A stretch of DNA of 64,000 nt from Yeosuana aromativorans (lineage in GTDB: Bacteria > Bacteroidota > Bacteroidia > Flavobacteriales > Flavobacteriaceae), in assembly GCF_014646655.1 (NCBI RefSeq), contig NZ_BMNR01000003.1, forward strand, positions 62,001-126,000. Reading direction: 5' to 3'. The position numbers and the translations under genes were made by a program. The notes beneath the pieces are model-generated. The model was not told the DNA's origin, did no database searches, and worked only from the letters and a program-made list of their open reading frames with translations. How positions within the stretch are numbered: the stretch's first letter is position 1; every line of letters starts with the position of its first letter. Positions 19,202 through 22,814 of this stretch are shown here, piece after piece.

Positions 19202-19531
19202 TTAATCCAAATCCATCTCTTCAGAATCCTCAGCTACATCAATATCTGGATCTTGAATAGCATCTGGATCGTCATTGTCATAATCTTCATAATCATCCTC
19301 ATCATAATTTTCCATGGTTTTCACCAATTTGGTACTTACCTTAATGAGGTATTTGGTGTCATCGGTATTAACTTCAACAGCTTCAACCAATTCGTTTTTA
19401 GCATTTCTAAAGGTGATAATATGCTCTTCATCATATCCGTCAGGATATTTTTCAACCAACAGTCCCAAAATTTCGGGCGTTAGCTTTTTAAAGTCTACAA
19501 TGACGCGTTTTAGGTTGTCTCTTTTATTCAT
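19202..19531 (-). CDS. Acidic-tail hypothetical protein of the polyamine operon
   Basis: A 109-residue protein. The N-terminal half (RVIVDFKKLTPEILGLLVEKYPDG) is ordered and mildly basic, the C-terminal third is strongly acidic with many Asp and Glu and no hydrophobic core (from about residue 75). It starts 2 bp after the stop of the deoxyhypusine-synthase-like gene, so it is in the same transcript. An acidic tail could bind polyamines or basic proteins; this is speculation. No family name can be given. Confidence 0.68.
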   Translation of the reverse strand: MNKRDNLKRVIVDFKKLTPEILGLLVEKYPDGYDEEHIITFRNAKNELVEAVEVNTDDTKYLIKVSTKLVKTMENYDEDDYEDYDNDDPDAIQDPDIDVAEDSEEMDLD

Positions 19532-19533
19532 AA

Positions 19534-20520
19534 TTACATATCTAATAAGTAGGCAAAAATAAGCGGTGCTACAATGGTTGCATCACTTTCAATTATAAAT
19601 TTTGGTGTGTTAATATCTAATTTTCCCCAAGTTATCTTTTCATTTGGAACCGCACCAGAATACGAACCATAACTTGTTGTGGAATCACTTATCTGGCAAA
19701 AATAGCTCCAAAACGGTGTGTCTGTTCGTTCCATATCTTGATATAACATGGGCACTACACAAATTGGGAAATCACCAGCTATACCACCTCCTATTTGGAA
19801 AAAACCAATACCATTTTTTGAGTTTTCGGTATACCAATCAGCCAAAAAAGTCATATACTCTATCCCCGATTTCATGGTGCTTGCCTTAAGCTCTCCTTTA
19901 AGTACGTAGCTAGCAAAAATATTTCCCATAGTACTGTCTTCCCATCCTGGAACAATTATAGGTAAATTTTTCTTTGCTGCCGCATACATCCATGAGTCTT
20001 TTAAATCAATTTCATAATATTCTTCCAAAACGCCCGATAATAGCATTTTGTACATAAACTCATGTGGCAAATAACGCTCCCCTTTATCATCGGCATCTTT
20101 CCAAATTTTAAAAATATGTTGTTGTAAACGCCTAAAGGCTTCTTCTTCTGGAATACAAGTATCTGTTACCCTATTTAATCCTTGCTCCAACAAATCCCAC
20201 TCTTCCTGAGGCGTTAAATCACGATAATGAGGAACGCGTTTGTAATGTGAATGCGCAACCAAATTCATGATATCTTCTTCTAGGTTGGCGCCAGTACAAG
20301 ATATAATTTGCACTTTATCCTGACGGATCATCTCAGCAAATATCTTGCCCAGCTCCGCAGTACTCATGGCACCCGCCAATGACACAAGCATTTTAGAACC
20401 TTGCTCCAACTGTGCTTCATAAGCTTTTGCTGCATCTACAACCGTAGCCGCATTAAAGTGTAAGTAATATTTTTCAATAAAATTAGAAATTGCACCTTTA
20501 GTATTCGTCATCATCATCAA
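19534..20520 (-). CDS. Deoxyhypusine synthase family protein, probable homospermidine synthase
   Basis: A 328-residue enzyme of the deoxyhypusine synthase fold. NAD-site motifs include SLAGAMSTAELGKI and ISCTGANLEEDI. ITWGKL places the catalytic lysine (about Lys300) in the position of the human enzyme's SWGKI, and ESDATIVAPLIFAYL follows. Bacteria lack eIF5A, so the likely reaction is spermidine- or putrescine-dependent homospermidine formation, consistent with the arginine decarboxylase two genes upstream. The start has four consecutive ATG codons (20520, 20517, 20514, 20511); the overlap with the upstream gene (up to 23 bp) is in a trinucleotide repeat. Confidence 0.88.
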   Translation of the reverse strand: MMMMTNTKGAISNFIEKYYLHFNAATVVDAAKAYEAQLEQGSKMLVSLAGAMSTAELGKIFAEMIRQDKVQIISCTGANLEEDIMNLVAHSHYKRVPHYRDLTPQEEWDLLEQGLNRVTDTCIPEEEAFRRLQQHIFKIWKDADDKGERYLPHEFMYKMLLSGVLEEYYEIDLKDSWMYAAAKKNLPIIVPGWEDSTMGNIFASYVLKGELKASTMKSGIEYMTFLADWYTENSKNGIGFFQIGGGIAGDFPICVVPMLYQDMERTDTPFWSYFCQISDSTTSYGSYSGAVPNEKITWGKLDINTPKFIIESDATIVAPLIFAYLLDM

Positions 20521-21424
20521 ATTTTGAAACGTTATTTTTTTGGTTTAAGCCTTCGTACGAATTGTCATAATCATCATCCACATTTTCTTCAGCAAACTTG
20601 TAGCTTAACATTTTGTAATACAGTCTGGCTGTTAAAAAGTCTGAAGCAGCATTTAATTCATTAGGACACAATCCTACCAAATCAAACCCTACAATATTTT
20701 TTTCTTCAAATAATTTTCTTAAAAACTCTAAGGTTTCATACCAAAACAAACCGCCTGGTTCTGGTTTGGCAACAGATGTCATTATGGAAATGTCAATAGC
20801 TGACAAATCAAACGTAATATACACATTATCTGTCATTTGGTCAATTGCGGAATCCATCCAAGTATCATCCACTGCCATATCATGGGCAAAATATATTTTG
20901 TCCTCATCATCCATGACCGTTTTTTCAATGGCATTCATGGAACGAACCCCTACTTGAATAAGATTGGTGGTTTGGCTAGCTTCATACAGTGCGCAATCTG
21001 GATGCAGAGAAGATCCTTTGTAAGTCTTCAATAAGTTTGCATGGGCATCAATTTGAAGTACCGTTAAACTATTGAAACACTCATTAAAAGCACGAATAGC
21101 ACCAATTGAAATAGCATGGTTACCACCTACAAGCGTTACAAACTTATTCTTTTTTATATATTTTTTTGCTGATTGGTGTACCGCATTAACCATAGTTTCA
21201 GCCGAAGATTCTGTTACAGCATCAGCTAAATAAATGCCTTGTCGGTATACTTCTGTATCTGTTTCAATGTCATATAGGGTAATGTTTTCAGAGGCCTTTA
21301 AAAAAGCTTCTGGCCCTTTTTGAGATGTATTTGCATTACCATAAGGAACAGGTATTAACACAATTTTGGCCTGCTCCTGCTTAGAAAATTCCTCTGGAAT
21401 CCCAGCATACGTTTTATTGTCCAT
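20498..21424 (-). CDS. Agmatinase/arginase-family protein with degenerate metal site
   Basis: A 308-residue ureohydrolase-fold protein. The metal motifs are altered: GGNHA keeps His103; DAHAN keeps Asp126 and His128 but the next ligand is Asn130; TFDLSAID keeps Asp206 but has Ser208 where Asp is expected. GLCPN (Gly251) replaces the usual VELCP or VEVNP glutamate that contacts the guanidinium. The codons were checked on the DNA and are clear. It is probably not an active agmatinase. Position between arginine decarboxylase and the deoxyhypusine-synthase homologue, with overlaps of 11 and up to 23 bp, suggests a role in polyamine synthesis, perhaps as a regulatory or scaffold subunit. Confidence 0.86.
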   Translation of the reverse strand: MDNKTYAGIPEEFSKQEQAKIVLIPVPYGNANTSQKGPEAFLKASENITLYDIETDTEVYRQGIYLADAVTESSAETMVNAVHQSAKKYIKKNKFVTLVGGNHAISIGAIRAFNECFNSLTVLQIDAHANLLKTYKGSSLHPDCALYEASQTTNLIQVGVRSMNAIEKTVMDDEDKIYFAHDMAVDDTWMDSAIDQMTDNVYITFDLSAIDISIMTSVAKPEPGGLFWYETLEFLRKLFEEKNIVGFDLVGLCPNELNAASDFLTARLYYKMLSYKFAEENVDDDYDNSYEGLNQKNNVSKFDDDDEY

Positions 21425-22814
21425 TATAACCTAAAATTTTAAGTAAGTCTTCACTTTTTTGTTGTTCACTAAATAATTCTGTTGTAAGGTTTCCGTTTTC
21501 ATCCTTATCTATTAAAATATGTTTTGGTGAGGGTATCAAGCAATGTTGCAATCCGCCAAAACCTCCAATAGTTTCTTGATACGCACCAATATTAAAAAAG
21601 CCAATATACAAAGGTTTTTCTTTATTGTATTTTGGCAAATAAATAGCGTTCATATGTTGCTCACTGTTGTAGTAATCATCACTATCACAAGTAAGACCTC
21701 CTAACAGGACACGCTCATAGCTATCATACCATCTATTAACGGGCAACATAATAAACCGCTTGTTAATGGCCCAAGTATCAGGCAATGTTGTAATAAACGA
21801 CGAGTTGATCATATTCCATTTTTCACGGTCGTTTTGTTGTTTTTGGTACAGCACTTCATAAATAGCACCACCGCTTTCACCCACGGTAAAGCTCCCAAAT
21901 TCAGTGAAAATATTAGGCACTTTTACTTCTTCCTCATCGCAGACAAGCTTAATCTGATTGATTATTTCATCAACCATATATTCATAATCAAAATCAAATG
22001 CCAATGAATTTTTTATGGGGAAGCCACCTCCAATATTCAAACTGTCCAATGAAGGACATATCCTTTTTAAACTGACATAAACCTTTAAACATTTTGACAA
22101 TTCGTTCCAGTAATAAGCGTTGTCCCGTATGCCTGTATTGATAAAAAAGTGCAGCATTTTTAACTTTACTTTTTTATTGTCCCTTACTTGTTTGTTGTAA
22201 AACGGTACAATGTTTTTGTAACCAATCCCTAGTCTAGATGTGTAAAACTCAAATTTAGGCTCTTCTTCAGAAGCTATTCTAATACCTATGTTGAATTTGC
22301 CTTTTATTTGTTCTGATAATAAATCGATTTCCTCATAATTATCAATAATTGGAATACAATTTTTGTGTCCGTTGTTTATTAATCGCGCAATATTCTCAAC
22401 GTATTGAGCACGCTTAAATCCGTTACTGATTACGTAGGTCTCTTCGGTTATCTTACCTTCCCTTTTTAAGTTCTCAACAATATCAATATCAAAGGCTGAA
22501 GAGGTTTCTATGTGGATATCATTTTTAAGTGCTTCATTTAAAACATGCTTAAAATGGGAACTTTTGGTACAATAACAATAGTTGTATTTTCCTTTGTATT
22601 TATTTTTTTTGATGGCTTTGGCAAACCAGCCTTTGGCCCTGTTGATATTATTTGATATTTGGGGCAAGTAGGTAAACTTTAATGGCGTTCCATAGGTTTC
22701 TACCAATTCCATTAAATCGATGTCATGAAATTGAAGGTTTTTATCTTCCAGCTTAAATTCTTCTTGCGGGAAATCAAAGGTTTGGCCAATAAGGTCAATA
22801 TATTTAGTATTCAT
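21414..22814 (-). CDS. speA: PLP-dependent arginine decarboxylase (alanine racemase fold)
   Basis: A 466-residue fold-type III PLP decarboxylase. YCTKSSHFKHVL holds the Schiff-base lysine (Lys84). LDSLNIGGGFP is the phosphate-binding loop, LTCDSDDYYN the conserved Cys-Asp pair near the second active site, and GAYQETIGGFGGLQHCL the C-terminal motif. It would convert arginine to agmatine as the first step of the polyamine operon. The substrate is deduced from family resemblance and neighbours; diaminopimelate and ornithine decarboxylases share the fold. It overlaps the agmatinase-like gene by 11 bp. Confidence 0.85.
   Translation of the reverse strand: MNTKYIDLIGQTFDFPQEEFKLEDKNLQFHDIDLMELVETYGTPLKFTYLPQISNNINRAKGWFAKAIKKNKYKGKYNYCYCTKSSHFKHVLNEALKNDIHIETSSAFDIDIVENLKREGKITEETYVISNGFKRAQYVENIARLINNGHKNCIPIIDNYEEIDLLSEQIKGKFNIGIRIASEEEPKFEFYTSRLGIGYKNIVPFYNKQVRDNKKVKLKMLHFFINTGIRDNAYYWNELSKCLKVYVSLKRICPSLDSLNIGGGFPIKNSLAFDFDYEYMVDEIINQIKLVCDEEEVKVPNIFTEFGSFTVGESGGAIYEVLYQKQQNDREKWNMINSSFITTLPDTWAINKRFIMLPVNRWYDSYERVLLGGLTCDSDDYYNSEQHMNAIYLPKYNKEKPLYIGFFNIGAYQETIGGFGGLQHCLIPSPKHILIDKDENGNLTTELFSEQQKSEDLLKILGYNGQ

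Follow-up and report, generated by a model that had tools for sequence, protein, structure and literature searches.

In the agmatinase SpeB of Escherichia coli, the metal ligands are H126, D149, H151, D153, D230, and D232; D153 and E274 participate in catalysis, and the guanidinium group is proposed to be bound by H163, T244, and E274 (PMC8049259). The arginase domain of the Fusobacterium nucleatum ornithine decarboxylase/arginase (Oda) is dead, with metal-ligand Asp residues replaced by Ser and Asn, and a noncatalytic role has been suggested for it (PMC12826042, citing Mothersole 2022). In metformin hydrolase, the arginase-fold subunit MetCb (MfmB) lacks a metal site, serves as a binding partner, and has been termed a pseudoenzyme (PMC11271267), and an arginase-like protein of Trypanosoma brucei has the arginase fold with its catalytic residues lost (PMC10820115). 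Here, we describe an orthologue of SpeB encoded in a 64,000-nucleotide stretch of the Yeosuana aromativorans genome (contig NZ_BMNR01000003.1, positions 62,001 to 126,000 of the forward strand; the whole stretch is hereafter called the window). As judged from its residues, the gene, at window positions 20498 to 21424 on the minus strand, very probably encodes a catalytically dead agmatinase. The reading that we favor, with a probability of roughly 0.6, is that of a displaced agmatinase kept as a noncatalytic partner, most likely of the SpeA-type arginine decarboxylase (ADC) encoded next to it.

The open reading frame was confirmed (308 amino acids; the plus strand there is crowded with stop codons), and its product matched the Pfam Arginase family PF00491 with 140 bits. 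An AlphaFold2 model for which 53 aligned sequences were supplied reached a pLDDT of 85.5 (a model from the single sequence, with a pLDDT of 34, was discarded) and superposed on the agmatine ureohydrolase 3pzl with a Z score of 32.9 and a root mean square deviation of 2.3 over 273 residues, in keeping with the arginase/agmatinase fold. The closest NCBIfam model was the agmatinase equivalog TIGR01230, against which the protein scored 156.5 bits, below the cutoff of 174.3. Alignment to the solved agmatinases 3lhl and 3pzl revealed that His103, Asp126, His128, and Asp206 are retained and that two of the six ligands (two His and four Asp) are lost, with Asn130 (codon at 21035 to 21037) and Ser208 (20801 to 20803) in place of the Asp residues of intact orthologues. 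Gly251 (20672 to 20674) stands where 3lhl, 3pzl, and intact orthologues have the guanidinium-binding Glu. Matched by motif to E. coli SpeB (H126, D149, H151, D153, D230, D232, and E274), these replacements are D153 to N, D232 to S, and E274 to G, and the columns of SpeB H163 and T244 hold Pro142 and Lys220, such that none of the three guanidinium-binding residues is present. Four residues are absent from the substrate loop between T33 and S34 (21323 to 21328), where gaps were also found in L130, L155, and L011. As the losses of ligands, guanidinium contacts, and part of the substrate loop combine in a protein with a conserved fold, agmatinase activity is very likely gone. An earlier note, made from the letters of the window alone, had listed the same four retained residues and the replacements Asn130, Ser208, and Gly251 and had suspected a deletion near residue 33; the alignments agree with it on all of these.

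To define the distribution of the altered residues, 149 Flavobacteriaceae genomes were searched; matches were obtained in 116, and 94 orthologous genes (at least about 48% identity) were read, a gene being scored as dead when any of the six metal ligands, or E251, was changed. The full residue set was found in 87 of the 94, six were dead, and one (in genome G061) was frameshifted; ADC and a deoxyhypusine synthase (DHS) homologue lay within the same 4- to 5-kb locus in 93 of them, the exception being L054. The four intact flavobacterial orthologues tested exceeded the TIGR01230 cutoff (223 to 234 bits); of six other dead sequences, three passed it as well (189 to 202 bits). In the comparison with agmatinases of other Flavobacteriaceae, which the earlier note had proposed, most orthologues keep the residues that the window protein has lost; with 87 of 94 orthologues intact, the idea that the family as a whole consists of pseudoenzymes was ruled out. 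The note's analogy with catalytically dead paralogues of the trypanosome type did not hold, as the gene is the flavobacterial agmatinase orthologue itself, altered in place and with no active copy beside it.

Addition of the window genus (seven genomes) and 80 named loci enlarged the set to 179 rows, of which 155 were intact, duplicates still included. The nearest named relative of the window protein, with 88% identity, is that of Yeosuana marina (L139). All seven genomes of the window genus are dead, with N130 and G251 in seven of seven and S208 in six of seven, and the other six copies are open, full length, and 78 to 90% identical to the window protein; as N130 and G251 are fixed throughout the genus, a sequencing error or isolated oddity was ruled out. 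In total, 21 distinct genomes in six signature lineages carry a dead gene: the window genus; Confluentibacter sediminis, G110, and G362; three Mariniflexile species with G071, G115, and G134; Mangrovimonas xylaniphaga; Seonamhaeicola aphaedonensis; and G234, G282, and G436. Parsimony required four changes on a tree of ADC and DHS (without the sixth lineage, and with 15 identical rows dropped) and six on a tree of ADC only. Positions 130 and 220 are altered in all six lineages, but the sets of broken residues differ between lineages and the depth of loss varies, with the youngest cases keeping at least 7 of 10 key residues. Within one genus, position 142 is P, E, or K, and one member has H103 changed to Q and D126 to G. 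H128 was retained in all 17 dead sequences of a residue comparison from which L099 (frameshifted) and L144 (the same place as L134) had been dropped. On the sequences compared, residue loss is lineage specific within the flavobacterial agmatinase family.

A replacement for the missing step is predicted elsewhere in the window genome. An agmatine deiminase family protein (AguA; PF04371, 363 bits, above the cutoff) is encoded by a gene that abuts one for an N-carbamoylputrescine amidase homologue (AguB). AguA contains the sequence WGxGxxHC, which we take to be the catalytic cysteine motif of the family, and its best match in the PDB was 1xkn. Both proteins missed the NCBIfam equivalog cutoffs (238.6 versus 381.8 for AguA and 319 versus 410.25 for AguB, TIGR03381), and their activities are thus probable, not certain. 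A bacterial route from agmatine through N-carbamoylputrescine to putrescine has been described (PMC10407285), and because the two genes lie side by side, putrescine is probably made through AguA and AguB in this genome; the possibility that it cannot be made at all was ruled out by the presence of these homologues. The expectation of the earlier note, that putrescine must come by another route if no other agmatinase exists, is thus likely to be correct, since the genome search that it had suggested yielded this pair and no intact speB, only a HutG-like and a degenerate-looking protein.

These two emerged from a PF00491 profile search of the genome, which identified three loci on three contigs, the window protein included. 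The HutG-like protein scored 39 bits against the agmatinase model, far below the cutoff, and its ligands look intact by eye. The other, of 388 amino acids (L003:1228-2394, minus strand, on contig C1 of genome G000), has metal motifs that look degenerate by eye (GGSQD, VDCKFD, and IDLNS) and may be another pseudoenzyme; the open reading frame upstream of it appears topoisomerase-like, again by eye. No active arginase-fold paralogue was found adjacent to the window gene in this whole-genome search, and a metal-free partner of an adjacent active paralogue, in the style of metformin hydrolase, was thereby ruled out.

The presence of AguA was then compared with the state of SpeB. AguA was called from matches over the full length, either to PF04371 with an E value no higher than 1e-90 or to the window AguA at 1e-60; L117 and L232 were excluded, being 34 to 36% identical to the window AguA at a locus without an AguB match, and weaker or longer PF04371 matches were regarded as other family members (23 of the 41 positive genomes of the first sample and G177, G181, G197, and G202 of the second). 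In the first sample, AguA was present in all six dead and in 7 of 87 intact genomes. In the second, of 54 genomes, it was present in 11 of 11 dead and 2 of 43 intact genomes (both Formosa), with one further intact genome harboring a 36% identical relative at a locus without an AguB match. The third sample, using the window AguA as a query, gave 48 positives among 397 genomes, 30 of them new; a SpeB orthologue was present in 18 of these, intact in 13 and dead in 5, of which two had already been counted. The fourth consisted of 80 genomes without window-type AguA, of which 51 have SpeB (50 intact and 1 dead, G234); as it was scored by the window AguA only, except for G234, the 50 intact controls may hide other AguA types. 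G234 was considered as a dead but AguA-negative counterexample, and this was ruled out by a Pfam search that identified a different AguA type (37% identical) with AguB adjoining it, as also in G282 and G436. The genome with the frameshifted agmatinase gene (L099, G061) has no AguA match and could represent a different loss route or a sequencing error.

Overall, AguA was found in 21 of 21 distinct dead genomes and in 22 of 182 distinct intact ones (22 of 189 with duplicates; L247, L248, and L324 had been dropped as duplicates, which identical DNA bore out, and seven more duplicate intact rows were found later), counts that do not reflect natural frequency, as AguA-positive genomes were selected for the third sample and genomes lacking window-type AguA for the fourth. 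In every dead genome but G362, whose AguA locus lay outside the data, AguB adjoins AguA (20 of 21). A Fisher test of co-occurrence on 142 rows, with relatedness ignored, gave 4e-15. The contrast is also seen in one pair of sister species: Seonamhaeicola sediminis is intact and has only a distant PF04371 relative (6e-53), and S. aphaedonensis is dead and has AguA (2e-110). The sister genome of the dead Mangrovimonas is intact and AguA positive, which fits an order in which AguA came first and loss second. AguA seems, from its phylogeny, to move between lineages, as the AguA of the intact genome G069 falls within the clade of the window genus. Of the 48 AguA-positive genomes of the third-sample scan, 20 have an intact SpeB, 12 a dead one, and 16 none, and no SpeB remnant was identified in the 14 SpeB-less AguA-positive loci with a DHS match (L135 to L138 and L330 to L339), where the ADC and DHS matches are 14 to 189 bases apart. 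In the open-licence literature, we found no paper linking agmatine deiminase, agmatinase, and Flavobacteriaceae or linking Yeosuana and polyamines.

The dead gene is under purifying selection. Codon-model omega (the ratio of nonsynonymous to synonymous substitution rates) was 0.032 in the window genus (seven genomes), 0.061 in Mariniflexile (three genomes), and 0.044 in the group of L022, L036, and L039, and it was 0.028, 0.029, and 0.050 in three groups of intact SpeB. Forcing omega to 1, with tree and kappa held, lowered the log-likelihood by 654, 159, and 215 units in the three dead groups, respectively, and the frame is open in all seven members of the window genus. Saturation is unlikely in Mariniflexile, as its tree is short (1.1 substitutions per codon).

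Parts of the protein differ in how they have changed. Rates were compared between pairs matched on ADC divergence, since the SpeB core itself is faster in dead copies; active-site loop ranges were set by us from motifs, and distances for the acidic C-terminal tail (residues 278 to 308, ending in DDYDNSYEGLNQKNNVSKFDDDDEY; 20501 to 20593) exclude the last seven residues. Active-site loop differences were 0.26, 0.19, and 0.34 in three dead lineages versus 0.04 to 0.05 in intact pairs, i.e., the loops are five to eight times faster in dead pairs. Core differences were 0.145, 0.070, and 0.165 versus 0.07 to 0.09, and tail differences were 0.13, 0.16, and 0.125 versus 0.27 to 0.32. Tail omega was 0.010 to 0.024 in three dead groups and 0.10 to 0.14 in two intact groups, with a value of 1.000 in the third taken as a failed fit; these estimates come from 31 codons and were not relied on. 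In 145 intact sequences, 124 columns reached a conservation of at least 97%; of these, 65 were unchanged in all 17 dead sequences, and those lost in at least two lineages were concentrated in the active-site loops (18 of 44, versus 6 of 80 elsewhere; Fisher test, 2e-5). In the dead lineages, the active site has been released from constraint, two of the three show a partly relaxed core, and the tail, which is retained with its acidic character and KF motif in G234, G282, and G436 as well, is not relaxed.

Within the window, the gene belongs to a tight run on the minus strand that reads, from right to left, ADC (21414 to 22814; 466 amino acids), the pseudo-agmatinase, the DHS homologue (19534 to 20517, with its ATG at 20517; SpeY or homospermidine synthase-like), and a small acidic protein (19202 to 19531; 109 amino acids). 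ADC and the DHS homologue were identified by profile matches in addition to their reading frames; all NCBIfam scores of the latter fell below the cutoffs, and its function is thus not settled by NCBIfam. The pseudo-agmatinase gene overlaps ADC by 11 nucleotides (nt) and DHS, counted from its first ATG, by 20 nt, in agreement with the earlier description of an intact gene overlapping both neighbors, and the final codons of the tail overlap the DHS start. Each of the 21 dead genomes has ADC at the locus of the dead gene, and three of them (G234, G282, and G436) gave no DHS match.

We propose that the gene is the former agmatinase of a flavobacterial ADC-agmatinase-DHS operon whose agmatine-to-putrescine step would have been taken over by AguA and AguB. 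Once freed from catalysis, SpeB may have lost residues that bind the metals or the guanidinium group, in several lineages and independently, with the folded protein being kept for a second, noncatalytic job. This job would most likely be that of a structural or regulatory partner of ADC, whose gene overlaps that of SpeB, perhaps acting through the conserved acidic tail. A role of the folded protein is preferred because translational coupling alone would not restrain missense changes, and ADC is proposed as the partner because it is present in every dead genome and DHS is unmatched in three. The earlier note had suggested a regulatory or scaffold pseudoenzyme; a protein that is very probably dead yet maintained fits the first part of that suggestion, and the scaffold or regulatory role is an inference from the selection on it.

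Several observations weigh against this proposal. Relatedness-aware pair tests of the co-occurrence all pointed in the same direction but were underpowered, with a median P value of 0.25; a pair test that set intact against all nonintact genomes was disregarded as biased, its SpeB-less rows having been drawn from AguA-positive genomes. As 20 of the 48 AguA-positive genomes keep both routes, AguA alone does not force loss, and the second job would be dispensable in the 16 of 48 that have no SpeB orthologue. The constraint on dead SpeB is partly relaxed, since the ratio of SpeB to ADC omega is about 4 to 6 in dead groups versus 1.4 to 2.1 in intact groups and the core is about twice as fast in two of the three dead lineages. 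The slow tail is not exceptional, as 26 to 29% of matched intact pairs are equally slow, and the dead SpeB of S. aphaedonensis (L214) stops four residues early in the tail, residues that its intact sister (L208) keeps. The status of G282 and G436 as dead is less sure, since their losses are limited to T220 and a single metal ligand (D130G), with five of six ligands remaining. In F. nucleatum, the ornithine decarboxylase domain restored growth without the dead arginase domain, according to the passages of PMC12826042 on Oda.

The gene could instead be a relic awaiting deletion, useless after the arrival of AguA and AguB and with a frame that stays open only through translational coupling to the overlapping DHS start. 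The coexistence of intact, dead, and absent SpeB among AguA-positive genomes fits such decay, as do the dead gene in G115 and its absence from G365 of the same genus (g116), the 20-nt overlap, the partly relaxed core, and the dead copy that ends early in the tail. Coupling leaves missense changes unconstrained, yet omega is 0.03 to 0.06 and neutrality is rejected in each dead group tested; moreover, all six other genomes of the window genus have open full-length copies, and the gene is still open in the three dead genomes that gave no DHS match. Given the low omega values, this explanation is strongly disfavored, and we consider it unlikely. A new enzyme, in which the altered site would act on a different substrate with a single metal or some other cofactor, is still less probable: the fixation of N130, G251, and, in six of seven genomes, S208 in the window genus, the retention of H128 in all 17 dead sequences compared, and the strong overall constraint would all suit it, but a new catalytic site should be conserved, and no part of the dead proteins changes faster than the active-site loops, with replacing residues that vary between and within lineages and lineages that broke different sets.

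Residual agmatinase activity, through slow catalysis with remaining metal binding or through ligands supplied by another arginase-fold protein in a mixed oligomer, is very improbable in our estimation. The window protein still has four of the six ligands (G282 and G436 have five), and the genome encodes the HutG-like protein as a conceivable donor; however, besides the two missing ligands, the window protein has lost the guanidinium Glu and two further substrate contacts, and the HutG-like gene lies on another contig and scores far below the agmatinase cutoff. Each arginase-fold subunit has its own metal site, which counts against a mixed oligomer. The explanation to which we give least credence is that the partner is the DHS homologue, or a guanidino-polyamine route with homocoupling of agmatine, and not ADC. 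A distinct DHS type occurs in 11 dead-SpeB genomes and one AguA-positive SpeB-less genome and beside no intact SpeB, and the DHS homologue CdmS of Thermus is described as coupling two agmatines before a ureohydrolase acts (PMC10981699). A role with DHS is nevertheless disfavored because three dead-agmatinase genomes have no DHS match; dead SpeB is also found beside the ordinary DHS type, the window included, and the function of the DHS homologue is not settled by its NCBIfam scores.

The distinct DHS type (L011, L022, L036, L039, L130, L131, L155, L163, L165, L186, L246, and L339) has a mean identity of about 81% to the common type, the DHS of intact operons, against about 91% otherwise, and is about 95 to 98% identical to L039. 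As it splits the window genus, its distribution suggests that the DHS gene has been exchanged horizontally. The small acidic protein that ends the run had no matches in Pfam or NCBIfam. A homologue of 99 amino acids (49% identity over 63 amino acids) is encoded in G234 (L323:2987-3286, plus strand), directly behind the dead agmatinase of this genome, where a DHS match is missing; for this reason, the acidic protein may belong to the same system.

A bolder form of the preferred reading, the displaced agmatinase as partner of ADC, can be offered tentatively, and we think it possible, though less likely than not: the flavobacterial agmatinase would in general be both an enzyme and a subunit or regulator of ADC, with the second job outliving catalysis in at least five independent lineages after acquisition of AguA and AguB and with the acidic tail as its working part. 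If so, the dead proteins would be natural separation-of-function mutants. A dead enzyme seen in isolation is a frequent finding and difficult to interpret; here, for one family, the same operon carries the active enzyme in some genomes, one of several independently arisen dead forms in others, and no trace of the gene in yet others, with a likely trigger (AguA-AguB) that can be scored from sequence. The retention of a dead polyamine enzyme thus becomes directly testable, which bears on the unexplained dead arginase domain of the Fusobacterium ornithine decarboxylase. For annotators, the dead copies that exceed the agmatinase equivalog cutoff are a warning.

Among characterized proteins, the window protein resembles the agmatinase SpeB (E. 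coli structures 7lol and 7lba; TIGR01230) in its fold, motif order, and place beside ADC, and its intact flavobacterial orthologues, where tested, are agmatinases with scores above the TIGR01230 cutoff. Unlike SpeB, it is without two of the metal ligands and all three guanidinium contacts, its substrate loop is shortened, it falls below that cutoff, and it has an extra acidic C-terminal tail. With Oda, as described in PMC12826042, it shares the tie of a ureohydrolase to a polyamine-forming decarboxylase, death by the same type of change (Asp to Ser or Asn), and retention across genomes; the arginase of Oda is a fused domain, whereas the agmatinase of the window is a separate gene, and the passages of that source on Oda do not mention replacement by an agmatine deiminase. 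MetCb differs in pairing, by the account in PMC11271267, with an active paralogue encoded beside it, whereas the window protein is an agmatinase orthologue with no adjacent paralogue. The arginase-like protein of T. brucei is eukaryotic, and no such operon or pathway replacement appears in the passages of PMC10820115 that concern it. To the known arginase-fold pseudoenzymes, the present case adds independent losses tied to a replacement pathway.

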